The position numbers and the translations under genes are program-made. A DNA stretch of 23,226 bases from a virus, in IMG/VR virus record IMGVR_UViG_3300022602_000444, positions 1 to 23,226 of that record; one strand, 5' to 3'. A model generated the notes under the pieces. It had not been told where the DNA came from, searched no databases, and was given only the letters and a program-made list of their open reading frames with translations. Every line of letters begins with the position of its first letter. Positions within the stretch are counted from its first letter, which is position 1. Shown piece by piece: positions 1-23,226 of this stretch.

Positions 1-35
1 CCTTCTATTTTGGCCAGGCCTGGTTGAATAATCAT
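1..35 (-). CDS. 5' end of an unidentified gene (truncated by window edge)
   Basis: An ATG at 35-33 overlaps the stop of the 49-aa ORF in an ATGA arrangement, the usual signature of translationally coupled phage genes. The frame stays open to the left edge and reads MIIQPGLAKIE, then a partial Gly codon. Only eleven complete residues are visible, so no function can be given. The support is the coupling geometry and the strand agreement with all upstream genes. It may instead be chance, because short open frames are common in such sequence. Confidence 0.45.
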   Translation of the reverse strand, partial: MIIQPGLAKIE

Positions 36-181
36 GCTCGTTTCTCCACAAACTTTTCTTTTGTGTTTGGATCAAAAATCCTTACAAATCCTTCAACCGA
101 AATACTTCCTGTTTCATTGGGCCGTTTAGGTGCAGTTTTAAGTTCTAGTACGGGTTGTGTTGGCGTTTTATTTTCAGTCAT
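32..181 (-). CDS. small 49-aa phage protein, unknown function
   Basis: The ORF begins at the ATG at 181-179, 16 bases after the stop of the giant gene, and ends in TGA at 34-32. A longer reading from an ATG at 283 is possible but would overlap the end of the giant gene by 86 bases, so the internal ATG is preferred. The protein is hydrophilic, starting MTENKTPTQPVLELK and ending in the segment GFVRIFDPNTKEKFVEKRA. That segment resembles the start of short phage proteins that, from memory, read like G-hydrophobic-K-I-x-D-P...V-D-K-R-N-A-I and normally continue further. Here translation stops right after KR-A. It may be a true short gene or one shortened by a frameshift. It sits just downstream of the baseplate genes; its role is unknown. 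Confidence 0.6.
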   Translation of the reverse strand: MTENKTPTQPVLELKTAPKRPNETGSISVEGFVRIFDPNTKEKFVEKRA

Positions 182-197: not shown

Positions 198-3100
198 TCA
201 AAGTCCACGTAGGAATCTTGCGGCTTTTGTTTGTGTTTCCTGCAATGGTACGCCATTACTCGGAGTACCTGATCCAGGTGCATACCAAGTTACTCCTCTG
301 CGTACTAAAATAGTTACTTCTGATCCATTTGCAGGTGCAGTAACAAATGTTACCGTAACAGGGTTATCGTTTGTGATAGTATACCCAGATGTTTGCAATG
401 ATCCACCAACATATACTTCTACTGTTTGATTTCTGATATCGCTAGGTTCTTGAGATGTGTCAATGTCATTGGCCACAAATATTGTTGTTGACCCGTCGCC
501 CAAAGAGTTATTGGCAACTATATAATTTTGGTAGTCCACTGGTAGTAGATTTCCAGGACCTATGTTATATACTGTGTCACCCACAGCATGCGGTGCAGCG
601 GCCGTTCCTGCAGTACCCCTTAGCAAACTGCTAACAGTATTGTCAGTGGTGTTTCTAATACGATACATAATACGTTCGCCGCCAATGGTCAGTGCTCCCC
701 ATATATTATCTGCTAAATTTGGTTCAATAAGTGCATTTGCATTGGCCACATAAATTATGTCATCTGTAGCGGACACTGATTGTGTCACTGTTGTGGTTGT
801 ACTAGCAGTTATCCTATATGTAGCTTGTACTCCGCGCATGTCTTGGAATATCCGAAAAGCCATTGCTTCTGGTACAACATATTGTGTAAAACTTGTTATT
901 GCTACAACGTCAATTGTACTTATTACTGGTCCTGTTAGTGTAATGGTACTACCTTTTACGGAATACCCATCACCATTGAACAACCAATGGCCATTGACAG
1001 TAATCAAAATGCGCTCTGGATTTAATATAGGAAATCCTACATCAAATGTATTTGTTTGTACAGGTACAGATGTGCCGTAATCAAAAGATCCTGATTCAAA
1101 ATTTGTTGTTCCAGAATCAAACAATGTTGTATCAAATCCTTCACCAACATATACTCCGCTTGAAGTTGGTCCAACAAATACTTGTGTCAACAATTGTTGT
1201 TCACGTGTATCGTTCCAGGTAATAATTTCAATGATGTCTCCAACTTGCGGACTTAGACCAGCAGCAGGATTGAATGTTAGTTGATCGCCTGATATTGAAT
1301 ATTGTGCAGCAGTGCTGACAGAAATCAATATTGTTGATCCTGTTGCAGCAGCAGTAGTCAAAGTTATTGTACGCGGTGTTGCGCTAACGTATGCATTAAC
1401 CACATAGTCAACATTTAAAGTCAAACTTTGACTGTTTACATATACTGTAACATCTGAATCAGAAATTATACTTTGGTTATATCCGCCATTGTCTGGCAAT
1501 GCGTAAACGGTTTGAGAACCATTACTAATATAACTTATTCCTTCAGCAGGGCGAGCACGAACACCATTTCTGGTTATTATGATATTAGCAGGATTCGTTC
1601 CTTGCAGACTATTTGTTAGTGTGTAGGTCAGCACAGTCGAATCAGTGATTGTGATAGTTTGAAACACTGGCAGACTCCAACTATATGTTGGGCCTGTTGC
1701 TGCATAACCAAGACAGGTTAAATTAATTCTGTCTGTTGAGCCAAATGAATATGCAAAATTTATTTGTGTTTTATTTTCAGAGTAAGTTGCATAAGTGTAG
1801 TCAACTCCTTCGACCAGTGGGCCATACTCACCATCATAGATAACAAATCCGCTGATGGCACTGATAGGGAAAGGTATGATTATGATATTGCCAATATCAG
1901 AGCCGACATAGGTATTGCTCAATAGTTGATTTCCACCTCCTGTGGCAACAACTGCAATTTGGATAATATCACCTGCGTTAGCACCTTGCGTTAACGTATA
2001 ATTATAGTTGACCCAATCATATGCACTTGGCTCAACTCCTAGACCAGTGGTAATATTCCATGTCAATACGACCATTGGGAATGGTAACAAATCTCCAAAG
2101 TATGCCACAGGATTTGCTGGATCGTAAACATAACGCTTTCCGATAAAAGGAAAACCAAACCCTTGACCAAGCCAATCTGCTCCAGGAGTTGTATAAACTC
2201 TGAAATCTAGTGTATCAAATTCAGCACCAGGAACTAGTTCTTCTGGAGCATGACTGCTATAAGGACTTATATAGGCACCACCTGCGACATTTATATCAGT
2301 GGGTCGTGTTCCAAGATACAAATCCAGATACAAACTGCTGTATTGAACGTCTAAGATTCCAGGATCGTATGTGATAAATCCCGCTGGGCTAATAAAATAG
2401 TTATCCCAGGGATTGATATCAAAATTGCCAACATCAAATCCTGTGTTTTGTTTGTAACTGGGTGCAGTGACTTGAACGCCAGGATAGTCAATTCCGTTGA
2501 TTAATAAAGGTAAACTTAATCCAGGCTGATTTTCTGTGGGAGTATAAAATCCCATGGTACGGTTTACACCACTTAACGAATCTGCGCTGACTAATGTCCA
2601 TTCACTCGGCAAGAACTGTGTAGAAGATTGTGTAGCTTTGGCACTCCATACTACATTAAGATACCGTACTTGTGTACCTTGTGTGTAGACTACGTTAGAT
2701 TGCCATTCTACTATGTTACTCTGATATTCATATCTATCATATTTGATCACCGTGCGTATTGATCTAATAAGACCATTGCCCATTTGTGCAATAGCAATTG
2801 CTCCAGATCCAGATGTAGAAGTAAAAGTTATTGTTGCAGTGGTACTATACCCTTGACCTGGAGTTATAATGTTTATAGCAGTGATTACTCCTGATCCGTT
2901 TACTGTTGCAGTCATTGTGGCTGGTATAATACACGTGCCAGAAACAGTTACTGTGGGAGGATTGTTATAATCATATCCAGAGCCTCCGTTGACAACGACC
3001 ACATCTTGAATTTCTAACAAGTAATTGTTGTACCATTGATTCCAAGGAAACTTCAACCAAATTGCAGCATTGGCTGCAGCATCACTGTTGAAATTTTCCA

Positions 3101-6100
3101 CGGTGCTAAGTGAACTAGTATATGGAGTTAGTACTGGGCTAACAAACTGCGGAATTTCTAAATCAGTGTCCCAATAAGCCGGAACATCATAATCTGTCAG
3201 TGAGCCGTCATATACATCCATGCCGTTGTAGATAAGATTAAAATTTAGTATTTGAGTATGGTAAGGTTTTACTTCTTGAATATAATCTTCAACAAAAGTT
3301 TGATTATCAGGCTGGTATAACTGATATGGTAGTAGTGCTCTTATTTTGTGATCTACATCAATGTAACTGGTTTTTATCAACCATTCTGGTGAAGTGAATT
3401 CACTGTAGATAAAATTAAACATCAAAATCAGTGATTGATTGCGCTCTAATAACAAATCGTCTACATAAATTTCTTCATTTAATGCACGAATGATCTGGCG
3501 AGTTTCAATCACAGGTTCCTGATCAAAATATTGTGCATCAAAGACTTCAGCATCAAATCCATATGGGCCTAGTGCATAATTCCATAGCACTGAGTCAAAT
3601 GCAATAGTTCCATCTTGAAGAGCCACACGAGTCCAACCAGTGGCTGTTCTTTGATAGATTTCAAATTTACCTTGACTGTTTGCAGTGACTTTTACGCTGC
3701 TACCAATGGGTGCAGTTGCCAGTGTTAGTGTGCTGAGATCTGCGTAATTGGCCACAGTGGCCACTATCTGTGTGGAACTGTTGTATCCTGGCAGGTACCA
3801 GGTAATGTACGTCCAGTACAATGGGGTATCATAATTTTGTATGCGTACAAGATCAAGCACTCGCTGGCCAGGTAGGCCGCCTTGTGCAACTTGGTAAATT
3901 GTCCAACGACCGCTTTGACTTGAATCTGAATCAACCAAATACAAATAGCCCAATGGAACTTGTGCAAGATTTTGATACCCCAGTACTTCTAAATTAGGTA
4001 CTTCAAAATTCCATGCTCCTGTATTGGGTGCTGGTTTTGATTCTGAACTGTTGAGTAAATTAAAACTACGAGTTTCACTGATAGGATACTGTGCCAGCAC
4101 ATTATTTGCTCGTGTCAAATAATTTTGCAATGCCACAAATCTATTAGCAAACATGCTTTGACGTGGTCTGAATTGAACTCCGTACTGTTGTCCAGGACTT
4201 AACATGGGATCTGGTACAAGATTACCCAGCGTATCTACTCCGCAAAAACTGTCTAGTAATTTGCGATACAAATTGGCATTTAAAAAACTATCTGGGCGAC
4301 CGTCGGCAATAAAAGCATACTCAACGTGCACATCAGCCGTAGTTGCTTGCCGATCATATCCAACATGTAATATAGTATCTTGAGCTGACAATAAACTGTT
4401 GGCATTATAAATGGCAATAGTACTGGCATTTAATCCAGCTATATACGGAATACCACTGCCAATGGGGTTTGAAATATAACCAGCAATACCTGTGGTACTC
4501 AGAGTTTTTCCTACTGCGGTGTTTATTGTAGATATTCCTCTTACCCAGAAGTAATAATTTGTGACAAAAATTCCGTTTACATCCACAGTGGTTGCCACAG
4601 TGTAGCTGATTGTGCTGAGTGGAGTACCTTGACCTGTGTAATTTGCAGGCGCCACTGAACTTTCTATCCACTGATAAATGTCTACATTACTACCTGGAAA
4701 TAATTGTGCCCAACGTTTACTAGCATACACAATGTCATCTTGGTTGGGATTGATAAATCTCACACGGTTGGTATCCCACCAAATTTCTCCCACATGGGCA
4801 GCGCCCCAACTGGTTCCTACATTGTGCACTGAACCTTGATTGTAGTTTGCAGGATCTACTGCACCAATGTAATCTATGTTTTGCCTTGCAGCGCCTAGTA
4901 TCTTTCCCTGGAGTGGGTCAATAAAATCATAATATGTTTGTGTACTGTTCAACAATTTATCGTAGCTGTAAACAGAATCCAACAAGTTTGTATCTACCAC
5001 TGGTTGCTGATAGTATTTTACTTCCCAAGCAAGTGCTCCTGTGGGATTGTCAAACACATAAGCTTCACCATAATTTGTTGTGCCGTTGCCTAAATCGCTG
5101 CCAGGTGCTCCTACTAATAATCTCCCTCCGACGTAGTTTACTGCTGTTCCAAATTGATCACCAGTCAATAATCCACTGTTATATATTTGTTGTCCAAATA
5201 TAAAAGCTCCTGGGTTCATCAATGAAACTGATGAGCTAGGCAAATAATCGTAGGTGTATGTTACACCACTGTTTGCAATAGCATCAAAAAATGTTGTGCT
5301 TCTCTCATCAAAATAAGTGGTGCCACTGTCAAATGTCATTTGTTCATAGACATTGCCGTTTGGAGCACCAACCACAAGATTTATGGCTCCAGAGTTTACG
5401 CTGATACTGGTTCCAAAATATGCATAATCAGTAGGGCTTGGACTTAGTATATCTTGCGTCCAAACATAAGTGGTAAATCCAATTGCATCAAATGCACTGT
5501 TTACTAGTCCCGGCAATACACTGAGTTTGTTAAATGGTGATGCAGATGTGGCATTTATCACAGACACAGTCATTCTGCCAGATATAACACTAATTGCAGA
5601 TTTTGATGCAGGTGCAGTTGTAAACAATATTTGTTGAGTATTGTTGTTATATGTGTAATCAACTCCTGAAGTTTGTAACACAGAATTTACATACACCACT
5701 GTGGTATAAGAGTCTGCAGCAGAATACACAGATCCTACATTGTACACTTGAGTAGTACCGTCTCCAACAAATAACACATCAGGAGTAATCGACGCCACTG
5801 CGTTTGGAACATTGGCAGCATTGATTGCTGCAACCAACCCTGCTATGTTGTTGTTAGGAATGGATGGTACAGCAATTTCAAACCCATTGATTCTAATAGT
5901 GTGACCAGCAGTCAGTGGAGGATTGGCAATGGTTGAAGTTGTGACACCATAAATTCTACTTTGATTTACTAGTCTTTCAACCATGCCTGATTCAGGAGGG
6001 CCAGCCTGACTACTTGTTGGGGCGCCAATATACACACTGCAATCATTGGGGCATATAACCACTGCTGATCCAAAAGCTGATGCAGTAGTAGGTGTTTTAG

Positions 6101-9100
6101 CAATAATTTTTTCGATCAAGTTAAATTGATTGGTTTCAATTGTAAGCGTATCTCCGATAGTTAATACAACATCAGAGCTTAGTACAATATTGCTTCCACT
6201 TATAGTATACTGGCCGTTGATATATTGAGCAGTATTTGTCAAATACGCATTGTTCAACAACACTGCAACAGGTGCAGTAACTGACCCTGGAATTGCATAG
6301 GTGTTTTGCGTTGTGCTGGTTATTTGATAATTTATCAAACTACGATCGTATGCATATACTGCTCCAGCATCTGACACTGTGCCAGCGGTGTCATTGATTG
6401 TGCCGATTATTAATTGGCGACCGTCGGTAGATGTAGTTATACTAGAACCAAATACTGCATCCATGCCAAGATCACTGCCGGTGATTGAGTCAACGTATTG
6501 CCAGTATGTGCTAGCAGTTACTTCAATGATTGCACCTGCATCTGGAATAACAACAAATGTCAATGCCCCAGCAGTAAATGTGTAGTCAATGTACGGTCTT
6601 TGTAATACTCCGTCTACAATGACTGTAAACGAATATATGTCAGTAATAGTATAAAAATATGTAGCTAATGCAAAATTATTATTTGTACTAATTCCGGTAC
6701 CAGAAGAAGTAAATTCAGTTATTGCTCCCAAATTTACTCCGGTCACTGTTATGACCAAATTATTTGCACTTGATCCATCAGGGCAAACCTGTGTATAACT
6801 TATGGTCAAAGTATTGCCAACTGCATATCCAGTACCACCATTGGTTAGTGCAGTATTATAAACTCCACGAGTATTAACTACAGTAAATTTAGCTCCGCTA
6901 CCAGATCCTGTGGTTGAATTTTGTTGCACATTAACATAAGTTTGAGTATCAAGTTGTGCATTTTGTCGACGGGCAATAGTTAAAGATAGTCCTGAAAAAG
7001 GAGCAGTATAAAATTGTATTACATTTGAATTAATATAATAATCAACTCCGTATTTAAGAACTGCATTATTGAGACTAACTCCAATTTGATTCGGGTGTGA
7101 CGGATCTATTAAAATAGAGTCAGACCAATTAAATGCAGTCTGTGTGCCGTTGGTTGTATAAGTCACTGATTGGAACGGAATATCAACTCTGCTATAAGCG
7201 TAAACTGTGTTGGCGCCAGGTGCGCTGATATATATCCAATGCTCGTTTTGACTTATTGCAGTCACTGCGCCAAAATTTATAGCACTGAAATTTTGATCTG
7301 GTGCTACCAATAATTGGGTTTGCAGATAATCGTTAGTTCCAGGAACTTGATACAGTACTGTTGCATATCCAGCATTACTGTTACTGGCACTGGCACCTGC
7401 AACGGCCCAATTTTTGCTTCCAAACATTACACTATTTCCGTACCCTGCGGTATCGGTAGCAGAAAGTGATAGTATAATATTGTTTACATAAGGTACTGTA
7501 TTAGATTTACGATATGTATAAATTAGTCCCGAACCTGAATTTGCGTTTGGACTACCTACTAGAACACTGTAATGATCTATAGTTTGACTTATACTTGTAC
7601 CAAATAATGAATTATCAAATAATTCATAAGGTTTTAATAAATCAGTTGTAGAAAATGGTGCAGTTTTTTCTAGTACTTCCCAGTGTCCGTTGCCATCATT
7701 GTCAACCCAGGCAGTAGCACCCGGAACAAGTGCCTTGGCATAAGGAAGATTAATAATGTTGCTGGCTTGACTTACTCGCATACTTTCTAAATAAAATACA
7801 AGTCCAGTACCAATAATTTGACTTTGATTGGTATTAGTAAACGCAAATGCAATAACAACAGTAGTAGACGATGGTACGCTTAAAACACGGTATACACCGT
7901 TTACTGCATCATTAAAATATTTTATAATAATTGTATTACCAATGGCTAGTCCGTGTGTTTTATTAAACTGAACTACACTGGTTGCATTTAAATTATTACT
8001 GAGTACATTCATCTGTCCCGGAACTTGTACACATCGATATATGCCCCAGTCGTAACTGTTAATTTGTGCTACCCATATAACAGTACCATCTCCAATGGTA
8101 TTAATGTTAGCATCAATGTTTGCTGGATTGTTCAGATTGAATACTGTTATATCTACATCATTTATATTCACATAACCAGCCGACGGCAGTGCAGTGTCAA
8201 GATTTGTGTTATACGTAGTGGGTAGTATATCTGTTGTGGGTATTGCATAGCTTTCGCTCCACAAATTACTCAAATAAATTGTTTGATCAGCTTGACTTGT
8301 TTCGCCTGGTTGAATAATTTGTACGGTGCTAGGATTGCTAGTCAATAATGCTTGATTAAGATTTATTTCAAACCAACTGCGATTGGCATTGGCTCCGTAG
8401 GTGCCAACTAGTATTCCCCAATTTTCATAAATGTTATAATCACCAGTTTCTCTGCCTAAGTTTGCTCGAGTAAACAGTTCAGCACTAAGATTAGTACCTT
8501 TGCTGCCAATAAATCCTTGATATATTTGAATTTGACTTACGTCATCAAGATTCAAATCAACCATGTACTGTCTTGGTCTGAATCCAGTAAGTCCAAATGC
8601 CAATAAATCATTGTCGCTGGCCAAATTGGCATCATAAATGTTATAACTATTGGCTTGTTGATCGGCTTTGTTGGGAATGTTAGGTAACAATCCTTGATCA
8701 ATCATGGCATAATTACTTTTAACCCAATTTGCATAATCAAATGTTTGGCTGGGTTGTATAATATTCAGTGCGCTCCAGTAATTATTTTTGTAAATTACTA
8801 TTTCACCTTTGGTGTATTTTACATTAGGTTGCCACTGAATAACATTATTTTGATTTAAAATAAAACCTTGTGCATTTAGTGTGCCGTCCCAGTCACTGCT
8901 GATGCTGGATTTCCATGCCACACGATTTTGCCGTTCAGCAGTTATAGGATCATAAATCAAATCATTGAAAATACTCACATTATCTAGTACTGCCATATTT
9001 TCATAATTGGTGAATTTTAAATCCAAATAAGAAATAGTTTGATTAGTAGCAGACGATATACTAAATGTATCACCATCACGAACAATAATCAAATTGTTTG

Positions 9101-12100
9101 ATTTGATACTTTGTTTATTTTGATCAGTTAATTGATTTTCAGGAGTCAAGCTTGTGACTGCAGCTACAACTGCTCCGGGCTGATACACTGAAATTTTGCT
9201 ACCGCCAGGATTCAAATTGATAATAGTGCCGGGTGCCCAGCCTTGTTGACTCCAGTACAGGAATTCCTGAGCCATTTGTGGCCAGTTAAGCACATAACCA
9301 TTTTGTATGCCGTCAAATACCATGCCTTGACTGGTTAAAAATACTCCGTAACTCAGGATAAAATCTACAACAATGGCAGCATTAGAAAAATTATATCCAT
9401 AAGGAACATTAACAATATTATTTGTGTATTTTGCAGGTACTGTTACAGTTATTCCGCCTGCACTAACAGTTTGTGTTATATTGTTGGTTGAACTTACAAG
9501 AGTAGGAAAGTATGGTTGTACGTTACTATATCCATATACACTGAATCCTGATTCTAATTGTTGAACAATTATCGAACTGTAAACAACTTCTTTAAAAGGT
9601 TGATTGGCGTACAATAATAAATTCCAACTTTCAGGAGGTAGTAACAAACTGGCATTTTGACTTTCAGGGCTAGATTTTTCTAAATAAATGCTGGCGTATT
9701 TCTTGTCTGTAAATCCAGCCATTCTATAGCAAAGTCTTACATCAAGATTAGCCAGATCTTGTGTCAATGCAGAAGAAGAATTAACACCAAGTTGTTGATT
9801 ATAATCTATTATCCAATTAATATAACTGGCTTTGCTTGAGCCGTTGCCGTATACTTGTACTTCGTTGGCATTTATTCTGTAGCGATTGTTGTAGAGATAT
9901 TGATCAAATTCTGCGTTATAACGATATAAATCTCTGTCAACAAACAGGCTAAAGAATTCAGCTGGTCGTGTCAGTGCCAACAATCGCATGACTGCAAAAG
10001 GATAACTTGAGCTAGACCACCAAGCAGCTTCTGTGGGACCGCCATCGCCAACTACCCAGCTTTTACGCCAAGAATTAGGATCGTATTGGCCAACTACACT
10101 GTCTAACGGACTTAGCAATGCACCTTGAGAGTCCACCGGAATTACTGTGGTTAATCCAGGGCGTGCATATTTTGTATTAATATAAGGAGCCACAGGGTCT
10201 GCAATATACCCAGCTTCAAGGTCTCCCCATAATACCAAGTTATCACTGGTATAAGGAACAGGACCATAACGTGAAGTCCACCATGTGGGTTGTTCAGTGA
10301 ATCCTAGCATTTCCCATGGTGTTAAATTAGGACTTGTAGTATCGTAAAAATATCTATAAATTCCTCGCCATGCACCTAACAATGGTTCTTCGTTGATTTT
10401 ATTGCCAGCAACACTGTAGTTGTAGGTAAAAGAATTTGACGCAATATAATTTTGTGTTTTGTAATCTACTTTATTTTGCCCAACCCAACTTAAAAAACTC
10501 TCTCCAAGTATTTGTGTAATCTGTGCTTGTGTGTAGTCAGTTGTTCTAAAGAATCCAGGGATAACATCATCAGCAGTTAATGGAACAGGATTTCCGTCAT
10601 TTTTAAGATTATCGTAAATTCTCTTTTCAAATTCTAATAGAATTTCATCTCTGAAATCACCAAAACTTAAAGTTATACTACCGTCGTGTCCTTGTATAAC
10701 CAACGTTGGATTTAAGTAATTTGTATCATAAAAGATTTCTGGTTTGAATTTAGGATATAGTCCTAACTTAGTTGGAGTGTTGGGCACGTAGTTGCCAATG
10801 GTACTACTATATTCGTTGATAGTAACAATATCTCCAACGTTCAACGGCACAGTTATAGTTAGTACTGGACTGTCAGGTGAAACTGTATAATCGTAGTTGC
10901 GGACTAGTAATACATCGTTGAGATATACCAATAACCCTAGATAGTTAGATTCGGTAAAATTATAAGTTTGAACAGTGTTAAACACTGATGTTGTTATTTG
11001 AGATACAGTTGTAGAATTTGAAACAAAAGTACTACCAGTTGGCAACATGTCTGACCAATAAAAAGGACTCAGACTGGTTTTTCCGACGGTAATTTGTGCA
11101 ATTGTAGAATCTAAAATTTCTGGAATAGTCATTGTGCCATAATCATTGCTGATCACTGTGCTTAATAATAAAGATTTAAATTTAATATATTCTCTGCTGT
11201 TAAAATCTAAGCTTGCAAATATATTGTAATTAGGATCTCGCATAAAATAACCAGCCAAAGTCATAGGAGAACTTTGTTGCAAAATCTGCAGACCATATGG
11301 AATTATGTTACCAAGATCTCTAGTGTTGTTGGCACCAATTACTGGGCCTTGCAAAGGAATTAAATTTTGTGCTATAGTACTATAGTGATTACGAATAGTA
11401 CCTAATGTAAATTGTTTGCTATTTCCGTTGAGAGGATTATTTTCCAAATTAATAGGCACTTGGAAAAATCCTTGATTACTAACTTGATCGCTAAGAACTT
11501 GTATTTCGATTAAGTCTCCGGGTACGTATGCCGTTAACCAGGTAATAGTAGTTGTGTTAGCTGTTGTAGAAACCCTATAGTGATAAGATTCTTGGAACGT
11601 GGCATTTACAAATACTTGTACAGCAGGAACAACATTGTTGGTACTAACTGCAATATCTAGCTGCGCAGGTGACCCATCGTACACAAATTGAAACTGTTGT
11701 CTAATCTGACTTTGTGTAACAGCTGTTTGCCAACCAATTTCTCTTTGATATGTAAGTCTAGAACTGTATTGTCTTACAAATCCAGAACTCAATGGAACTG
11801 TTTGTCCAGCACTGTTTATAGTGTAGTTAAAAGAATCTGCATATAAATTATTGTCAAAAACAATATCGCCAATATTAGATAAACTCAAATAAGTCAGTGG
11901 AAATCCCAAATACAGATCTAACGGGCCTGACCCCACTGCATAGCTAAACAACGAACTACCATGAAAATTTGTACTAGGGTATGTAATAGAATCACCAAAA
12001 CTAACTCCATTGGCATCATATATGTTAAACTGTGGAGGCTGATTTACATTTAATTTTTGTTGTTCAATTATCCAATTTAATCCATCAAAGCTAAAACTTT

Positions 12101-14474
12101 GTCCCTGTAATGTATTACCGTTTAAACAAAGCACAGTTTGATCAACCAATGCTGGACTATCATCTGTGGCTGTCAATGCAATTATTGGCTCTGCAATCAA
12201 TGGTGGAACTGTGTCTGGGGTAATAAAATTAACCTGATAGACTGTGCGTCGTACCACTGGGTCTAAATCAGCAGCAAATACGACCCTGTTACCTTGAGCA
12301 AGTTGGTATCCGTCGGTGTTAAACCCTATGCTGCCGTTTACTGTTCTAAGTGCGTCTGTTTGTGTAAAATCAATTATACTAACTGGAGTTTTTCCTTCTG
12401 TACCAAAATTGAATAGTCGTGTGCCAGCACGGAATTCTAATATGGGTCGTCGTGCACGGAATTGATTGTCTAATACTGGAACTGTGTTATTATAAGCGGC
12501 CGCAGCCAAAATAACATCTAGATGAGTCCAACGATTACTGCGAGTCCAAGGATTCAAATCTCCACTGGCACGATTAATAGTAAGATAATCTGGAACTATA
12601 GGAGTGCCAGATGGATAAGAACTACTAACATCTGCATGTTCTTGTACAATATACGGTTCTGGTGTAACAAAATTTGTTGTTGGTAGTAGTTGAATTGCAG
12701 AACCTACTCCTTCAACCCAGTACGAATTATTTTCATAACTGGTAGGCAAAGTAGATCCTCTAAAAGTTACTATCATGCCATTGGTAAATGTTACTCCATT
12801 AGGACTGGTGTAATTTTTTTGTCCAATGATTGTAGAAATATCCAATGTGGATGCAGAAGTTTGATCAATGAGTCTAATAGTCCCAAAGATATTCGGGTCT
12901 GTTCCGTCTTGGTACCAAAGCACGCTACGTGCGGCAGTCAGCAAAGGTATTTGTTCAAAGTAGCCGTTGGCATCTTTGTACCACTGTGTACTTGCCCACT
13001 GATTGCCAAACAACACAGTAAATTTGTCTAGGTCTAGCACGGGCGCAATGCTGGTCAAGGACAAATATACACGACCTCCAGAATCAGTCTGATATTGTAT
13101 TCTCCATACACTGTATTGTTGTGCTGTATCTGTAATAAAAGTAGTTTGATCAAATGGCAAGCTATCAAAGCTACCGGGCAGACCATTTTGCCCAGTCAAC
13201 AACGGATCAAAAGGAGTTGTAATATCCCATCCCTGTGTAGAAGTAAAAACAATCGTGCGGCCATTTAAATTTGTTATTCCATCTATGCCATCAGGATTAG
13301 CTGCATAAAAATTGTCAATGTATTGATTATTAACTTGATCAAATTGCAAAGAAGTTGAAATAAGATCAACTGTGCCGTTGTTCAATAGCAACGGAGTCAA
13401 GTTGTAATAAAAACTCTGTGCGTCACTGAGCGGCACATCAAATGTCACAGTGCCAAGATCAATACCGTTGTTGGTCACACCCAGCACAGTTCTGCTGCTG
13501 ATATTAGGAGTAGCAGGTATCTGCCCATTCACACCAGGATCGGTTTGAATCCAAAAATCATTGCCAGTACCTGGTGTTGCATCAATAATATTAAACTGTC
13601 CGCGCAGATTAAATTCTACGGGATTACAATAGTAAAGCGTGTCAGGTGCATCTTGCGGTACAGTAAATATAATTTGACCATCACTGGCACCGTTGTTTAT
13701 CACTCCTTCTGTGTATACATTTACTATGCCTAAACTGGCAATAGTTTTAATATAAAAAGGAAATGCACCTGTAAGTGAAAGATTAAAATAGTAGGTATTA
13801 CCCCGAACTAGTGTTAGTGTAGGATTTGATTCTTGATTAATAACATAGGCACTTGTGCCGTTGTTGGTCACACGATATGTTATGGTTTCTGTGGTATTTT
13901 GTGCCACATTGAATGTATAACTGCCGCCTTTGACCAGAGTCAGTGTGGGGTTATTTCCAGCATAGGTACTAAAAGTATAAACACCGTTGGCACGTGTCAC
14001 TGTGAAATTGCCAGTGGTTGGCACACCGGTGGCGCTAACATTAACTGCTTCTGGTCCGCTTGGTAACCAAAAATATTGAGCATAGTTTACAAATTTGTCA
14101 AAATCAACAAACGGATCCCAGGTATAATAATCACTGGTATACAAATAATCAGAGTTGTCAGTGATACCACCTTGTAGTGTAATGGCATCAGTTATACCAG
14201 GATAAGTGATAGCATCAACAATTTTAGTTGAATCTGTGGGATCAATTTGTATTACACCAGGTTCTAACTGATAGTCAGTTCGACTTTTAGTAGGCTCAAT
14301 TACATACTGATCATTGGCATTAACTCCAGGACCAACACGTTGTCCTATAAATCCTTGTGATTTTTTAAAATTAGGATTTTGAACCAATTGATCAAGGGTA
14401 GCAGATAAGAATTGCTTATTAACCGGAGTCTGGAATATGTCAGGTAAAAAATTTACAGTACGTGTTGTGGCCAT
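198..14474 (-). CDS. giant 4758-aa virion structural protein, probable baseplate/fibre-associated
   Basis: This single open frame has no internal stop. It starts at ATG 14474-14472, sharing one base with the gp6 stop (UAAUG) and preceded by GGAG seven bases upstream. It ends GVPLQETQTKAARFLRGL. I read it as a multidomain beta-rich structural protein. Seen along it: an N-terminal head with FLPDIFQTPVNKQFLSATLD (residues 9-28); a cupredoxin-like domain (217-298); an aromatic block (about 1365-1515); two W-Y-G-Y-W-W carbohydrate-binding-like modules (about 1878-1925 and 3921-3965); seven FG-GAP-like repeats (about 2290-3143); GGSGY/GGTGY hairpin segments (near 2540 and 3830); and about eleven VNG...DYT modules, densest between 4180 and 4730. 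Only about ten cysteines are present. No signal peptide, membrane helix, protease or glycosidase active site was recognised. It directly follows gp6, where T4 encodes gp7 and gp8, so I infer a peripheral baseplate or receptor-contact role. Structural assignment is fairly sure; specific function is not. Confidence 0.85.
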   Translation of the reverse strand: MATTRTVNFLPDIFQTPVNKQFLSATLDQLVQNPNFKKSQGFIGQRVGPGVNANDQYVIEPTKSRTDYQLEPGVIQIDPTDSTKIVDAITYPGITDAITLQGGITDNSDYLYTSDYYTWDPFVDFDKFVNYAQYFWLPSGPEAVNVSATGVPTTGNFTVTRANGVYTFSTYAGNNPTLTLVKGGSYTFNVAQNTTETITYRVTNNGTSAYVINQESNPTLTLVRGNTYYFNLSLTGAFPFYIKTIASLGIVNVYTEGVINNGASDGQIIFTVPQDAPDTLYYCNPVEFNLRGQFNIIDATPGTGNDFWIQTDPGVNGQIPATPNISSRTVLGVTNNGIDLGTVTFDVPLSDAQSFYYNLTPLLLNNGTVDLISTSLQFDQVNNQYIDNFYAANPDGIDGITNLNGRTIVFTSTQGWDITTPFDPLLTGQNGLPGSFDSLPFDQTTFITDTAQQYSVWRIQYQTDSGGRVYLSLTSIAPVLDLDKFTVLFGNQWASTQWYKDANGYFEQIPLLTAARSVLWYQDGTDPNIFGTIRLIDQTSASTLDISTIIGQKNYTSPNGVTFTNGMIVTFRGSTLPTSYENNSYWVEGVGSAIQLLPTTNFVTPEPYIVQEHADVSSSYPSGTPIVPDYLTINRASGDLNPWTRSNRWTHLDVILAAAAYNNTVPVLDNQFRARRPILEFRAGTRLFNFGTEGKTPVSIIDFTQTDALRTVNGSIGFNTDGYQLAQGNRVVFAADLDPVVRRTVYQVNFITPDTVPPLIAEPIIALTATDDSPALVDQTVLCLNGNTLQGQSFSFDGLNWIIEQQKLNVNQPPQFNIYDANGVSFGDSITYPSTNFHGSSLFSYAVGSGPLDLYLGFPLTYLSLSNIGDIVFDNNLYADSFNYTINSAGQTVPLSSGFVRQYSSRLTYQREIGWQTAVTQSQIRQQFQFVYDGSPAQLDIAVSTNNVVPAVQVFVNATFQESYHYRVSTTANTTTITWLTAYVPGDLIEIQVLSDQVSNQGFFQVPINLENNPLNGNSKQFTLGTIRNHYSTIAQNLIPLQGPVIGANNTRDLGNIIPYGLQILQQSSPMTLAGYFMRDPNYNIFASLDFNSREYIKFKSLLLSTVISNDYGTMTIPEILDSTIAQITVGKTSLSPFYWSDMLPTGSTFVSNSTTVSQITTSVFNTVQTYNFTESNYLGLLVYLNDVLLVRNYDYTVSPDSPVLTITVPLNVGDIVTINEYSSTIGNYVPNTPTKLGLYPKFKPEIFYDTNYLNPTLVIQGHDGSITLSFGDFRDEILLEFEKRIYDNLKNDGNPVPLTADDVIPGFFRTTDYTQAQITQILGESFLSWVGQNKVDYKTQNYIASNSFTYNYSVAGNKINEEPLLGAWRGIYRYFYDTTSPNLTPWEMLGFTEQPTWWTSRYGPVPYTSDNLVLWGDLEAGYIADPVAPYINTKYARPGLTTVIPVDSQGALLSPLDSVVGQYDPNSWRKSWVVGDGGPTEAAWWSSSSYPFAVMRLLALTRPAEFFSLFVDRDLYRYNAEFDQYLYNNRYRINANEVQVYGNGSSKASYINWIIDYNQQLGVNSSSALTQDLANLDVRLCYRMAGFTDKKYASIYLEKSSPESQNASLLLPPESWNLLLYANQPFKEVVYSSIIVQQLESGFSVYGYSNVQPYFPTLVSSTNNITQTVSAGGITVTVPAKYTNNIVNVPYGYNFSNAAIVVDFILSYGVFLTSQGMVFDGIQNGYVLNWPQMAQEFLYWSQQGWAPGTIINLNPGGSKISVYQPGAVVAAVTSLTPENQLTDQNKQSIKSNNLIIVRDGDTFSISSATNQTISYLDLKFTNYENMAVLDNVSIFNDLIYDPITAERQNRVAWKSSISSDWDGTLNAQGFILNQNNVIQWQPNVKYTKGEIVIYKNNYWSALNIIQPSQTFDYANWVKSNYAMIDQGLLPNIPNKADQQANSYNIYDANLASDNDLLAFGLTGFRPRQYMVDLNLDDVSQIQIYQGFIGSKGTNLSAELFTRANLGRETGDYNIYENWGILVGTYGANANRSWFEINLNQALLTSNPSTVQIIQPGETSQADQTIYLSNLWSESYAIPTTDILPTTYNTNLDTALPSAGYVNINDVDITVFNLNNPANIDANINTIGDGTVIWVAQINSYDWGIYRCVQVPGQMNVLSNNLNATSVVQFNKTHGLAIGNTIIIKYFNDAVNGVYRVLSVPSSTTVVIAFAFTNTNQSQIIGTGLVFYLESMRVSQASNIINLPYAKALVPGATAWVDNDGNGHWEVLEKTAPFSTTDLLKPYELFDNSLFGTSISQTIDHYSVLVGSPNANSGSGLIYTYRKSNTVPYVNNIILSLSATDTAGYGNSVMFGSKNWAVAGASASNSNAGYATVLYQVPGTNDYLQTQLLVAPDQNFSAINFGAVTAISQNEHWIYISAPGANTVYAYSRVDIPFQSVTYTTNGTQTAFNWSDSILIDPSHPNQIGVSLNNAVLKYGVDYYINSNVIQFYTAPFSGLSLTIARRQNAQLDTQTYVNVQQNSTTGSGSGAKFTVVNTRGVYNTALTNGGTGYAVGNTLTISYTQVCPDGSSANNLVITVTGVNLGAITEFTSSGTGISTNNNFALATYFYTITDIYSFTVIVDGVLQRPYIDYTFTAGALTFVVIPDAGAIIEVTASTYWQYVDSITGSDLGMDAVFGSSITTSTDGRQLIIGTINDTAGTVSDAGAVYAYDRSLINYQITSTTQNTYAIPGSVTAPVAVLLNNAYLTNTAQYINGQYTISGSNIVLSSDVVLTIGDTLTIETNQFNLIEKIIAKTPTTASAFGSAVVICPNDCSVYIGAPTSSQAGPPESGMVERLVNQSRIYGVTTSTIANPPLTAGHTIRINGFEIAVPSIPNNNIAGLVAAINAANVPNAVASITPDVLFVGDGTTQVYNVGSVYSAADSYTTVVYVNSVLQTSGVDYTYNNNTQQILFTTAPASKSAISVISGRMTVSVINATSASPFNKLSVLPGLVNSAFDAIGFTTYVWTQDILSPSPTDYAYFGTSISVNSGAINLVVGAPNGNVYEQMTFDSGTTYFDERSTTFFDAIANSGVTYTYDYLPSSSVSLMNPGAFIFGQQIYNSGLLTGDQFGTAVNYVGGRLLVGAPGSDLGNGTTNYGEAYVFDNPTGALAWEVKYYQQPVVDTNLLDSVYSYDKLLNSTQTYYDFIDPLQGKILGAARQNIDYIGAVDPANYNQGSVHNVGTSWGAAHVGEIWWDTNRVRFINPNQDDIVYASKRWAQLFPGSNVDIYQWIESSVAPANYTGQGTPLSTISYTVATTVDVNGIFVTNYYFWVRGISTINTAVGKTLSTTGIAGYISNPIGSGIPYIAGLNASTIAIYNANSLLSAQDTILHVGYDRQATTADVHVEYAFIADGRPDSFLNANLYRKLLDSFCGVDTLGNLVPDPMLSPGQQYGVQFRPRQSMFANRFVALQNYLTRANNVLAQYPISETRSFNLLNSSESKPAPNTGAWNFEVPNLEVLGYQNLAQVPLGYLYLVDSDSSQSGRWTIYQVAQGGLPGQRVLDLVRIQNYDTPLYWTYITWYLPGYNSSTQIVATVANYADLSTLTLATAPIGSSVKVTANSQGKFEIYQRTATGWTRVALQDGTIAFDSVLWNYALGPYGFDAEVFDAQYFDQEPVIETRQIIRALNEEIYVDDLLLERNQSLILMFNFIYSEFTSPEWLIKTSYIDVDHKIRALLPYQLYQPDNQTFVEDYIQEVKPYHTQILNFNLIYNGMDVYDGSLTDYDVPAYWDTDLEIPQFVSPVLTPYTSSLSTVENFNSDAAANAAIWLKFPWNQWYNNYLLEIQDVVVVNGGSGYDYNNPPTVTVSGTCIIPATMTATVNGSGVITAINIITPGQGYSTTATITFTSTSGSGAIAIAQMGNGLIRSIRTVIKYDRYEYQSNIVEWQSNVVYTQGTQVRYLNVVWSAKATQSSTQFLPSEWTLVSADSLSGVNRTMGFYTPTENQPGLSLPLLINGIDYPGVQVTAPSYKQNTGFDVGNFDINPWDNYFISPAGFITYDPGILDVQYSSLYLDLYLGTRPTDINVAGGAYISPYSSHAPEELVPGAEFDTLDFRVYTTPGADWLGQGFGFPFIGKRYVYDPANPVAYFGDLLPFPMVVLTWNITTGLGVEPSAYDWVNYNYTLTQGANAGDIIQIAVVATGGGNQLLSNTYVGSDIGNIIIIPFPISAISGFVIYDGEYGPLVEGVDYTYATYSENKTQINFAYSFGSTDRINLTCLGYAATGPTYSWSLPVFQTITITDSTVLTYTLTNSLQGTNPANIIITRNGVRARPAEGISYISNGSQTVYALPDNGGYNQSIISDSDVTVYVNSQSLTLNVDYVVNAYVSATPRTITLTTAAATGSTILISVSTAAQYSISGDQLTFNPAAGLSPQVGDIIEIITWNDTREQQLLTQVFVGPTSSGVYVGEGFDTTLFDSGTTNFESGSFDYGTSVPVQTNTFDVGFPILNPERILITVNGHWLFNGDGYSVKGSTITLTGPVISTIDVVAITSFTQYVVPEAMAFRIFQDMRGVQATYRITASTTTTVTQSVSATDDIIYVANANALIEPNLADNIWGALTIGGERIMYRIRNTTDNTVSSLLRGTAGTAAAPHAVGDTVYNIGPGNLLPVDYQNYIVANNSLGDGSTTIFVANDIDTSQEPSDIRNQTVEVYVGGSLQTSGYTITNDNPVTVTFVTAPANGSEVTILVRRGVTWYAPGSGTPSNGVPLQETQTKAARFLRGL
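276..1937 (-). repeat. C-terminal array of VNG...DYT beta modules in the giant protein
   Basis: Residues of roughly 4180-4733 carry at least five divergent copies of a module of about 40-60 residues: a beta strand with V/I-x-V/I-N-G/S, a turn, G-V-D-Y-T or a variant, then I-T-F/L-x-T-A-P/A-x-x-G-S and a final strand. Clear examples contain VYVNSQSLTLNVDY (near 4345), ITVNGHWLFNGDGYSV (near 4491) and VYVGGSLQTSGYTI (near 4685). A different segment interrupts the array near 4595-4630 with TIGGERIMYR and LLRGTAGTAAAPHA. Six further copies lie upstream near residues 952, 1181, 2465, 2619, 2739 and 2928. The fold is inferred to be an Ig-like or fibronectin-like sandwich. Confidence 0.6.
2580..2714 (-). 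other. carbohydrate-binding-like module, copy 2 (giant protein residues ~3921-3965)
   Basis: The segment carries W3924, Y3930, G3933, Y3938, W3943-x-A and W3959. This W-x5-Y-x2-G-x4-Y-x4-W-x-A...W spacing resembles family 5/12 carbohydrate-binding modules, which use the aromatics to bind polysaccharide. Spacing matches the other copy at 8700-8843 except for one residue before the last Trp. Binding is inferred, not shown. Confidence 0.5.
5046..7607 (-). repeat. seven FG-GAP-like repeats, putative beta-propeller (giant protein residues ~2290-3143)
   Basis: Seven segments share the pattern F/Y-G-x-x-V/I...hydrophobic-hydrophobic-G/S-A/S...G-x-(V/I/A)-Y-x-Y: near residues 2291 (FGTSISQ...VLVGSPNA), 2343 (YGNSVMF...AVAGASA), 2400 (FGAVTAI...YISAPGAN), 2675 (FGSSITT...IIGTIND), 2800 (FGSAVVI...YIGAPTS), 3019 (FGTSISV...VVGAPNG) and 3107 (FGTAVNY...LVGAPGS). 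In integrin alpha chains seven such repeats form one seven-bladed propeller. Blades 3-4, 4-5 and 5-6 are separated by inserted VNG...DYT modules. The calcium-binding DxDxDG loops of integrins are not evident. Confidence 0.6.
8700..8843 (-). other. carbohydrate-binding-like module, copy 1 (giant protein residues ~1878-1925)
   Basis: The segment shows W1881, Y1887, G1890, Y1895, W1900-x-A and W1917 in the aromatic spacing of family 5/12 carbohydrate-binding modules. It is about 2040 residues upstream of the second copy, and the rest of the two sequences is diverged. A role in contact with surface glycans is an inference from the motif only. Confidence 0.5.
9930..10382 (-). other. aromatic-rich conserved-looking core of the giant protein (residues ~1365-1515)
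   Basis: This block is dense in Trp, Tyr, Pro and Gly: PWEMLGFTEQPTWW at 1386-1399, then YGPVPY, LVLWGDL, WRKSWVVGDGGPTEAAWW and PAEFFSLFVDRDLY. From memory it looks like the best conserved part of very large phage structural proteins, more so than the flanking repeat modules. I know no fold or activity for it. It would make a good anchor for homology searches because it is not low-complexity. Confidence 0.4.
13581..13826 (-). other. cupredoxin-like domain with lost copper ligands (giant protein residues 217-298)
   Basis: The segment opens with NPTLTLVRGNTYYFNLS, continues with PFYIKT, GVINNGASDGQIIFTVP and closes with DTLYYCNPVEFNLRGQFNI. Phage cupredoxin-like domains of this pattern usually end in a C-x-x-H-x-x-M-x-G metal site. 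Here the Cys remains (residue 283) but the expected His and Met are replaced. A partial copy of the opening strand, NPTLTLVKGGSYTFNV, sits 42 residues upstream at 175-190. I infer a structural, non-metal-binding domain. Confidence 0.55.
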
Positions 14475-17400
14475 TAAATTACTCCGCTACCAGGGGCAGT
14501 CTGTAGATTTGTACTGGTCAATGCAGTTATAACTTGTATGTCATTGACTGTGGCACCATTGACAAAAATTTGATTTGGTGCGCATCTTATTTCATATAGG
14601 TCACCAAAACTCTTTTGTGGATTGAGTGGAACCAATACCACTGAACTAACCACATCACCTATTTGTTGATGTATGTAAGCAGCCAATTCTGAAAAATAAA
14701 ATGTTTGCCCAAAGTCCCATACTGCTATGTCAAAGTATGCATTCATGTTGGCCACAACTAAATTTTTGATTTCGTTAGTGCTGGCTGTACTTTGAATTGA
14801 CTGTATGACTTTAATAGTTGCTCGCAATGCAGGGTCTGCTTTGCTGCCAAACAAGGGTTGGAACTGCACTGAATTCAATATCATGTTGTCAGATATCATT
14901 TTATAATTTTGCAATCCCACGTAAGCAGTGGTCAAGTCATCAATTGTGGGAGGCGACGGCAATGCCACAGTGCCTGTTGAATCATAAAGCCAATTTGTAT
15001 AGGCAGTGTAATAAGCATTGGTAGCAATGTACACGTCAATGATATTGGTTGAGCCAGGATCTATTCTACTGGTCAATGGTGAATTGTGTCGATATTGGAA
15101 ATACAATCCTTGGCGGCCGGTATAAGCAATAAAAGTTGTGTCTACAACCAATATACTGTTGCCTGACGAATCTACAGATAAATCGTAGAACACTTGATCT
15201 TGATAGGCGTAAAATACCTGTCCAAGATTGTACTGCGACATGGCCAGTTCAATTGCTCCAACTGTGGCATAATCACTGTTTACTGTTCCAGGAGCAACCA
15301 ACAAATATCTTTGTAGATTGTCAAAATCAACTGTTTGTTGTAGGAACACCAACTTGTGATTGGGGTTAACTGCAGGGGCAACTATATCGTTGAAGAAGTC
15401 AGGGTTTATAGGAATCAAATCTCCTGGTGTGGTAGCAAAGCTGACCAACACTTGGAAATCGTCGACTAGACCGTCACTCAGTATTGGTTGGTCAATGATA
15501 GTTAAAATATTGTCGCCAGGCAATGGATAATTGCTGTCAGGTTGACTGTTAACTTTTAACACATTCACATAGTCCCTGACCACTGTACCTGTGCGTGAGT
15601 CGTAGATTGGTTGATTTGTGTAAAAGAAAAATCTTGTGTCAATCACACTACCAAAATAATAGTCCAGGCTTCTTGATACCACAGTGTAATTGGCCAGGCC
15701 TGGTGCAGTGGTAGTGCACTGTATCAACCAAGAAGCATCACTGTTGGTACCAGCAGTGCTTTGTTGATTGGCCAAACTGAATGTGGCATTGACAGCCAAA
15801 TTGTTAGCAGTTATGATATACCATGTGGCAGTTATGTTGTTGTAGCCAATGCCAAAATTTTGATTTAGATAGATTTGATTAACAATACTTTGTTGGATGC
15901 TAACTGGAATGTCTGTGACAAAAACAGGAATCACTTGAGTGGGTATGGCACCAGTGGGTACAAAATTATTCAGCACCACTGGACCAACACCAGATGGAAG
16001 ATTGCCATAGCCTTGTGCAGTTCCACTTAGATACACCGCGGTAGGGCTAGCCCAGATAGATAATTTATCCCCAGCCTGGCCCGGCGTGCCTACTACTATT
16101 TGATTCTCTGCATTAAAATAATATCCGCTAGGAGGAACAAATTTGACCAAACTGCTTTCAGTTATGTACTTGGCATTGTTGCTGGCATAAGTTCCAATGG
16201 GTACTGGAACTCCTGCAGAATTTTGAAAGTAGCCGGTGGTCTCATTGGTGATTACTGTGCTTTGATGCCAAGTATAATTCAACACTGACAAGTCAGGTCT
16301 TGTAAAGTTAGCATAATAAAATTGTTGCAGGCCAGCTTTTAGCAACAACGGACTGATTTGATTGTAAACCACATCTGATATATCTGGTATGGTCAACCAC
16401 GAAAATTGAAATGCTGGCAATGTGTTTGCTTCATACAGTGCGCCATCAGCCGCAAATATATTTGTACTGGAGTATTTTCCAGTGCCGTCAACTAGATCAA
16501 GATATCGACTGGTTCCGATACTTGCACGATTCAGTGCCTTGCTTTTTAAAATACTGTTGTATTGCGTAAAAGGAAAATTGGTGTAATCTTCACCGTTGAC
16601 CATGCGATTTTGTGTGTAGTACTGTGCTGGTGCCCGTTGTTTGATTTGTTGTAGAGTTTCACGAGCCTGCGCATTGGTCACAGGAGCAGTGATACCACAG
16701 GTAAATGTTATGGTTTCAATTTGATTGGTACGGCTAACATAACTGATTGGAATGCTAACACTTTGCATTTCCTCTGGGTTGATGATATAGGTCAGTCCGT
16801 TGCTGGCACGTACATATGTGCGGAATGTGCCCACTGGTATTGTACTGAATATGCCATCACCAAAGTTTAGTATAATTTGATCGTTGGTAGCACTGGTTAT
16901 ACTGTAGATATCTCTTGTGCCTGGTGCCAATTGTTCAATGGCCGCTGCATAAACACTTTGTACAATTTGCCAGTAACTGGTTATGTTTCCTACATTGTCC
17001 AATTGATACAACCAGACGTCAGTGTTGTTGATACCTTCGATATTGATATTAACCTGACGATTGGCAATGCGTTCTGGCAAGTTAAAATCTTGATTTTGCA
17101 ACACACCTTGCTTGAAGTAAAAGAAAAATCCTGTGTTGGCACTTGAAAATCCCAGTTGATCATTTCTAAACAACACGTTAAACTGTCCGTTGGGCAAGGG
17201 AGGTGGTTCGTAAATGTAGTTTTGTCCACTGCTGGTAGCATTGACTGCTTCAAACGGCATGTTCACACCATCAATGGTTGCAGTGTAAGGTATCACAGGA
17301 AGATAGCCAGGCACAAGATTTATAGTGTACTCTTGAGTGTCAACTCCCAATATGACCTGATCATTTCCAGGATTACCAAATCGTTGTGTGTTGACCAAGG

Positions 17401-17932: not shown

Positions 17933-18307
17933 TTAAACGTAACTGGCAACTCCAGAACCTTGATCAAAAAATATTGCCAGCAACTGAGCATCTTGGCCAG
18001 CAACTGTTTTTAGTGCGAGTTGTATCAGTAAACCATTTTGTTGCGGAAATACCTGAAGTGAATCAACATACACTCTGGGATCTCCAGCAACAACTCGTTG
18101 AATTTCGTTGTAGACACTGGCCAATGATTCTTGTGTTTGATTTTCAAACAAGTTGTTCCAGAGTGTGGTACCAAAATTAGGACGTCCTACCAACTGCCCT
18201 TGCCTGATATTAAAAGCATTTAGAAGGTCTATTTTGATCAGGTCAAAGTCAACCACAGTAAATTTTTTATACTGATTGATAGTGTTAAATCCAATGAATG
18301 TGGCCAT
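17933..18307 (-). CDS. 25: baseplate wedge protein gp25 (GPW/gp25 family)
   Basis: gp25 starts sheath assembly at the baseplate and binds gp6 in the wedge core. The 124-aa length is close to T4 gp25 (132 aa). Family features are the helix FDLIKIDLLNAFNIRQGQLV (21-40), the motif GRPNFGTTLWNNLFE (41-55), the helix SLASVYNEIQRVV, and DPRVYVDSLQVF with the following hydrophobic strand at 76-102. The ATG at 18307-18305 follows the upstream stop after only seven bases. The gene lies immediately before gp6, the same 25-6 order as in T4. No strong Shine-Dalgarno is visible; a GGTAAATA element sits just upstream. Confidence in the family is high. Confidence 0.92.
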   Translation of the reverse strand: MATFIGFNTINQYKKFTVVDFDLIKIDLLNAFNIRQGQLVGRPNFGTTLWNNLFENQTQESLASVYNEIQRVVAGDPRVYVDSLQVFPQQNGLLIQLALKTVAGQDAQLLAIFFDQGSGVASYV

Positions 18308-18311
18308 GTTG

Positions 18312-18319
18312 TATTTACC
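18312..18319 (-). promoter_or_regulatory. GGTAAATA leader before gp25
   Basis: GGTAAATA followed by CAAC and the ATG at 18307 repeats the octamer and spacing seen before the 49-aa ORF. It overlaps the last codons and the stop of the 872-aa gene. It may serve as a weak ribosome-binding site or as a degenerate late-promoter box (six of eight bases of TATAAATA). Confidence 0.35.
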
Positions 18320-22507: not shown

Positions 22508-23226
22508 TATGCGTCGTCCTGTGCTATTGGTTGTGAGGTATCTGTAGTATTTTGTCCTACAGTTTGATCTTGTGGTGTGTCACCATTGGTGCTGTCAACG
22601 TCTCCGTTGCTGGTCGGCGGAGCTGGTGGTGCAGATGGTTGTGTGCCTGGATTGCTTGGTGGTGTTTGACTGGTTGAATTAGGTGCGGGATTGGAATTTT
22701 GAAACTTTTGTAGGCCTGTGACCCAGGTACTGGCATCAGTGGTCAATGAATTGACCTGTCTACTGAGATTGTTCAAACTTAAATTGTTGATCACTGCGTT
22801 ACCAATAATTGCAGTGGATGCAATGTTAGTTGCAGAGTCTGCACTGCCTGTTTGTGGTCGTCCATTGGCTGCGGCTGCAATGGTGTTGGTCTTGTTGTAC
22901 TCAATCAAGGCACGACCTTCCAGCTCCTGCTCAAATCTTCCTTTGCTGAATGTGCTTTTGCATTTGACCGCTGTGTAGGTAATATTTTCAATGGGTTCTC
23001 CATATTGATTTTTTTGAATATTCATTGTGCCAGTGTCAAGATTGTAATCAGTGGGTCTGTTCCAACTTATGTCAAACACAATTTGTTGGCTGTCATAATT
23101 TATGCCGCCATCTGCGTTGAAAGGTTGAAAACTAAAATTGCTGGCAGGACCAATACCAGGGCCTGATTCGCCTTGTTGCATCCAGGCAGGGTCGCCCACG
23201 ATTTTCAAATGACATTTGGCTTGATC
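22507..23226 (-). CDS. 3' part of a probable baseplate hub protein (truncated by window edge)
   Basis: The frame is open to the right edge and the first visible residues are DQAKCHLKIVGDPAWMQQ, so 239 residues of a longer protein are present. A start could be called at TTG 23208, but it lies inside this run and is probably not real. The visible part has ASNFSFQPFN, a strand IVFDISWNRPTDYNLDTGTM, and YTAVKCKSTFSKGRFEQELEG. This resembles, from memory, the last domain of hub proteins that bridge tube and spike. The final 70 or so residues are Pro/Ser/Thr/Gln/Asp-rich and probably disordered. The gene directly precedes the spike with a UAAUG overlap, which fits a hub protein (T4 gp27-like position). 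The identity is inferred. Confidence 0.65.
   Translation of the reverse strand, partial: DQAKCHLKIVGDPAWMQQGESGPGIGPASNFSFQPFNADGGINYDSQQIVFDISWNRPTDYNLDTGTMNIQKNQYGEPIENITYTAVKCKSTFSKGRFEQELEGRALIEYNKTNTIAAAANGRPQTGSADSATNIASTAIIGNAVINNLSLNNLSRQVNSLTTDASTWVTGLQKFQNSNPAPNSTSQTPPSNPGTQPSAPPAPPTSNGDVDSTNGDTPQDQTVGQNTTDTSQPIAQDDA

Follow-up and report, generated by a model that had tools for sequence, protein, structure and literature searches.

A half-megadalton modular protein encoded next to gp6 in jumbo phages probably takes the place of gp7 in the baseplate wedge

In bacteriophage T4, gene 7 lies directly 3' of gene 6, and its product gp7 has 1032 aa. Much larger versions of gp7, the baseplate wedge initiator, are encoded in T4-like cyanophages, where the gene follows gp25 and gp6 (Bellamy: 4067 aa, P-HM2: 4454, S-CAM9: 3884, ACG-2014f: 4225); the corresponding proteins of S-RIM44 and S-PM2 have 3274 and 3048 aa. 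In the cyanophage A-1(L), two gp31 and one gp32 build the wedge as a heterotrimer, held together by an N-terminal helical bundle (PMC10966104). In jumbo phages, large proteins encoded beside gp6 were recovered from virions in work published in 2017-2020: 21 peptides were reported for CBB_236, which adjoins the gp6 CBB_237 (PMC5259590), and 17 for phAPEC6 gp245 (381.88 kDa), which adjoins the wedge protein gp244 (PMC7247149). Huge phages encode proteins of up to 7,694 aa, some of them tentatively structural (PMC7162821).

The DNA analyzed here (the window) is a linear IMG/VR record of 23,226 bases and therefore a fragment. Its genes are all encoded on the minus strand and follow each other 5' to 3' in the order incomplete gene, gp5-like gene, gene of an 872-aa protein, gp25, gp6, giant gene, 49-aa ORF and the start of another ORF (Table 1). 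The stop codon of gp6 (TAA) and the ATG of the giant gene overlap by one base, and the start context of the latter reads ...GGAGTAATTTAATG, with GGAG at 14485-14482, seven bases 5' of the ATG. The same translational overlap is found between genes 6 and 7 of T4, whose gp7 is 4.6 times shorter and has no significant sequence or profile similarity to the giant protein. The gp6 end is located at most 250 nt upstream of the giant gene in 116 of 129 relatives. The order gp5-gp25-gp6-giant recurs in PA5oct, RaK2, Phosso, PBECO4 and Munch, and the giant gene also adjoins gp6 on its 3' side in Atu_ph07, Vibrio 2.275.O and Hallingskeid; in SCTP-2, the upstream gene carries no gp6 annotation.

Table 1. 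Features of the window, with residue numbers referring to the giant protein.
Feature	Positions	Strand	Evidence
49-aa ORF 3' of the giant gene	32..181	minus	GxVxIxDPxT motif
Giant gene, 4758 aa, ~520 kDa, pI 4.3, Lys 1.6%, 10 Cys	198..14474	minus	ORF, PHROG 10938, dN/dS 0.083
Residues 1-150: most universal, N-terminal core; LP motif at start, short helix 17-31	14025..14474	minus	alignment, AF2
Residues 150-532: variable insert, tandem cupredoxin-like domains	12879..14027	minus	Foldseek, occupancy profile, self-similarity
Residues 533-1160: conserved core 2	10995..12878	minus	alignment, occupancy, AF2
Residues 1160-2150: conserved core 3, mixed alpha/beta	8025..10997	minus	AF2, Foldseek
Residues 1875-1917: CBM5/12-like domain, copy 1	8724..8852	minus	Pfam PF02839 below gathering cut-off, Foldseek
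Residues 1985-2010: 'F-KGT--S' motif, invariant K-G	8445..8522	minus	weak similarity to gp7 'DFYxSKGTxxSxxxLF'
Residues 2287-3145: FG-GAP repeats interrupted by beta modules	5040..7616	minus	Pfam FG-GAP_2 E 3.3e-13
Residues 3130-3790: conserved core 4	3105..5087	minus	alignment, occupancy
Residues 3790-4758: variable C-terminal region, further ~75-residue beta modules	201..3107	minus	occupancy, self-similarity
Residues 3821-3898: beta module in common with Bellamy giant gp7	2781..3014	minus	37% identity, E 1e-5
Residues 3918-3959: CBM5/12-like domain, copy 2	2598..2723	minus	Pfam, self-similarity
gp6 stop/giant start overlap TAATG	14472..14476	minus	sequence
Ribosome-binding site GGAG	14482..14485	minus	sequence
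gp6 baseplate wedge, 1137 aa	14474..17887	minus	PHROG 10646 E 1e-275, PHROG 219 E 5e-21
gp25 baseplate wedge / sheath initiator	17933..18307	minus	Pfam GPW_gp25 E 4e-7
872-aa protein between gp5 and gp25	18315..20933	minus	ORF
gp5-like spike/hub, OB domain	20933..22507	minus	PHROG 13211 E 2e-38, Phage_base_V
C-terminal part of a further gene, cut by window end	22507..23226	minus	ORF

The remaining genes deserve a short description. The 872-aa protein is encoded in only 35 of 129 relatives with enough upstream sequence, which marks it as the product of an accessory gene of the baseplate region; one stretch of it is similar to a domain from a PHROG named major head protein. No lysozyme domain was detected in the gp5-like protein, the gene cut by the window end matched no family among the PHROG and Pfam profiles, and no tRNAs were found in the window. 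The motif of the 49-aa ORF recurs in the post-giant genes of PA5oct, Atu_ph07 and Phosso. This ORF ends with 'FVEKRA' and is overlapped by 4 bases by the second ORF (35-1, minus strand), which in the contigs L010 and L011 opens with the GFVxIxDPxxGE motif again, a pattern reminiscent of a domain duplication. A single gene of L062, and likewise of Phosso, continues the motif into 'NAIHYENMSVA'.

The original prediction, made from the sequence alone, described a single 14.3-kb gene for a 4758-residue structural protein that takes up about 61% of the window, has a clear start (GGAG plus UAAUG overlap) and is several times larger than any T4 baseplate protein. All of this is borne out: the minus-strand frame, a strand left unstated at the time, comprises 4758 codons with a terminal stop only, covers 61.5% of the window, starts in the context given above, exceeds the 1032 aa of T4 gp7 severalfold and lies among baseplate genes, with homologues in a PHROG named 'virion structural protein'. 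The frame is one real gene, as 72 complete homologous frames and a dN/dS of about 0.08 along its whole length demonstrate. Of the 74 longest frames that are complete on independent IMG/VR contigs, 72 span 4046-5341 aa, and some open frames among the relatives exceed 5700 aa; the two exceptions, L129 and L153, contain frame shifts within otherwise continuous homology. Moreover, the relative L010 is 85% identical and aligns across residues 1-4758. Comparison of the two genes yielded a dN of 0.099 and a dS of 1.20 (dN/dS 0.083, 4736 codons), and dS greatly exceeded dN in all six sections of 800 codons. That the frame comes from a single metagenomic contig might raise the suspicion that it was chimerically assembled or misread, an idea which the end-to-end match of an independent contig, the 72 complete homologues and purifying selection throughout refute for practical purposes; going by these sequence comparisons, the frame is very unlikely to be fragmented or chimeric, in line with the earlier claim.

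Profile searches placed the giant protein in a family of giant virion proteins already described from jumbo phages, of which it is a large representative: it matches PHROG 10938 'virion structural protein' in four stretches (E 2.3e-283). Members of this type are RaK2 ORF070 (3326 aa), PA5oct gp355 (3857), Atu_ph07 gp180 (4449), SCTP-2 gp140 (3807) and Phosso 294 (4555), and further homologues have lengths of 3771 (Vibrio 2.275.O), 3333 (PBECO4), 3330 (Hallingskeid) and 3342 aa (Munch). A query with residues 1301-1900 recovered 56 relatives, and a search with the core alignment led to no fewer than 598, all on uncultured contigs. Uncultured aquatic phages with such a protein number in the hundreds. 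CBB likewise gave matches to the family. CBB_236 and phAPEC6 gp245 are probably homologues too, since both are encoded beside gp6 and gp245 is also of fitting size. The database record of PA5oct marks gp355 as ESI-MS/MS, and the main text of the RaK2 paper does not name ORF070. Giant-core relatives were also encountered within bacterial MAGs (L155, L156, L157, L158, L159 and L160; L155 and L157 are named Candidatus Neomarinimicrobiota) and probably represent phage contigs binned along with these. The earlier suggestion of an exceptional protein is thus not supported, as the corresponding slot codes for 3300-4600 aa in sequenced jumbo phages and for a gp7 of 3000-4450 aa in cyanophages; with the family known and proteins of up to 7,694 aa reported, the size is not new.

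Compared with the window protein (4758 aa), the jumbo-phage members of PHROG 10938 share the slot behind gp6, the giant size (3326-4555 aa among those compared) and four cores with 22-41% identity, which correspond to residues 1-150, 533-1150, 1224-2150 and 3130-3790. They differ in the cupredoxin-like inserts and the FG-GAP propeller, which they lack or replace by other inserts. The best reading is a conserved chassis of about 2400 residues into which lineage-specific beta modules are inserted. Many beta modules and a few non-repetitive, conserved-looking cores had been anticipated from the sequence, and both are borne out. The core at 1224-2150 is mixed alpha/beta and not all beta in the model of core 3 (residues 1160-2150, AF2 pLDDT 80). 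Apart from the CBM-like domain, this model found no match in the PDB at E<=0.001 using Foldseek, and its strong matches in BFVD, where named, were other phage giants only. Searches for solved relatives by sequence profile gave chance-level matches only. Long alignments contained spurious joins with the second CBM-like copy, and such rows were excluded from the alignments used for structure prediction. A YHYH-like domain in core 3 of the relative L065 (~1405-1532) is shared with Bellamy gp7 (1259-1394, 38% identity), which points to domain exchange between giants of different phages.

The variable parts are of several kinds. The insert at residues 150-532, almost absent from the known jumbo-phage homologues according to the occupancy profile, is self-similar (181-282 / 223-357), and its modelled domains (AF2 pLDDT 85) resemble laccase and rusticyanin (Foldseek E 2e-5 to 2e-4). 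Despite these fold matches, an identity as copper cupredoxin was rejected, because a scan with one regular expression found the type-1 copper-ligand pattern in none of 146 giants. The two CBM5/12-like copies match each other in self-comparison (E 1.5e-7), and the first one hit chitin-binding domains as well as baseplate and fibre chains from solved phage structures in Foldseek. FG-GAP motifs at about 2291, 2345, 2401, 2675, 2801, 3020 and 3108, about seven in number, suggest that residues 2287-3145 form an interrupted seven-bladed propeller. FG-GAP is present in the window-type relatives L042, L054 and L062 and was not detected by Pfam in RaK2, PA5oct, Atu_ph07, SCTP-2, Phosso and L065; among the papers searched, none linked it to baseplates. 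The C-terminal region contains ~75-residue beta modules at 4309-4391 and 4652-4726, and for residues 4259-4758 no homologue was found in isolated phages.

How does this protein relate to gp7? The giant gp7 of cyanophages occupies the same slot, is of similar size and shares the mobile beta module at residues 3821-3898. In contrast to the window protein, with its weak KGT motif near 1990, it contains, close to the N-terminus, a segment that can be recognised as T4 gp7, and the cores of the two giants are unrelated by profile comparison. In Bellamy gp7 (gene 111, L161:4071-16274), the resemblance to T4 gp7 (727-813) is restricted to the region around 191-296. HH probabilities for the window giant did not exceed 30% with cyanophage gp7 and stayed under 1% with T4-type gp7, compared with 95-97% for the cyanophage-T4 control, and no match to PHROG 964, 17744 or 2885 was obtained at E<=0.1. 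No gp7 was among the best 50 PDB matches listed for core 3, and those listed for residues 1-1160 were cupredoxins. Direct homology to T4 gp7 was thus not established by Pfam, PHROG, HHalign or Foldseek. The one match that recurred aligns the family pattern FYxGxIxxKGTxxS (~1990) with the gp7 motif. Its scores of 31-34 lie above the maximum of 24.6 from 100 column shuffles (31.2 in that comparison) but short of accepted significance, and it was obtained with cyanophage and not with T4-type gp7 profiles; as a sequence likeness it is weak and suggestive only. T4-type gp7 (PHROG 964, 17744) was found in none of eight sequenced jumbo phages and four large relative contigs, with the controls T4 and V09 both detected. 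Given the shared slot in T4 and cyanophages and the lack of any other recognisable gp7 in the jumbo phages tested, the giant protein most likely fills the place of gp7, to which it is similar by position and probably in role.

We therefore consider it, with a probability of roughly 70%, to be the outer wedge (arm) protein of the contractile-tail baseplate of jumbo phages and a positional, probably functional, analogue of T4 gp7. This is in agreement with the gp6-adjacent gene order, the probable homologues in virions, the weak KGT match to cyanophage gp7 and the CBM-like domains in solved baseplates and fibres. Against it count the lack of significant profile similarity to gp7 and of a gp7 fold match for core 3 as well as the filing of PHROG 10938 under 'head and packaging', although the neighbours are baseplate wedge genes. 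In light of the low HH probabilities and the KGT score, we prefer to say that the protein works like gp7, in its place, and not that it is gp7. A closer kinship is possible, if rather doubtful: the giants could be true, extremely inflated gp7 with a split wedge core, consisting of the N-terminal LP-helix and a KGT helix-turn-helix about 1950 residues further on. A newly folded chassis and mobile domains would then fill the space between the two parts and follow the second. If so, T4 would have enlarged gp7 N-terminally and cyanophages C-terminally, and a single wedge subunit would have grown by three different routes.

An attachment outside the wedge core, as a side fibre, tail whisker or receptor-binding arm, appears unlikely to us. 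Beta modules of the giant (~196-300) do occur in fibre-annotated cyanophage genes, it carries carbohydrate-binding-like and FG-GAP modules, and RaK2-like phages have whiskers along the tail (PMC5259590, PMC7247149). However, conservation of the four cores from aquatic to enterobacterial jumbo phages, the dN/dS of 0.08 and the fixed linkage to gp6 are unlike fast-evolving receptor-binding fibres, and RaK2 retains the chassis without the window-type modules. Cleavage of a precursor into several virion proteins is quite improbable. The size of the protein would fit such a scheme, and because the published mass spectrometry coverage of homologues is low (7.6-7.7%, with the full-length protein not demonstrated) some processing may take place. 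On the other hand, the four cores keep a constant order, no protease site was identified and no relative has a conserved split; split genes were rejected, as the only two broken frames (L129, L153) look like frame shifts.

Under the wedge assignment, the protein would attach to the gp6 dimer of all six wedges through its N-terminal and central cores, so that a virion would contain about six copies. The lineage-specific beta domains (cupredoxin-like, CBM5/12-like, FG-GAP and ~75-residue modules) would be inserted in chassis loops and appended C-terminally, and they may act as spacers that widen the baseplate and offer surfaces on which fibres and the host envelope dock or make contact. This placement, the copy number and the role of the inserts are inferred.

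Taken together, these results assign a likely place and role to a jumbo-phage protein family that ranks among the largest unassigned ones and has relatives on at least 598 uncultured contigs. They also suggest a second look at the filing of PHROG 10938 under 'head and packaging'. Two phage groups encode giant proteins beside gp6, and if the wedge placement is right, a modular arm of half a megadalton would be present in about six copies in the baseplates of these jumbo phages.
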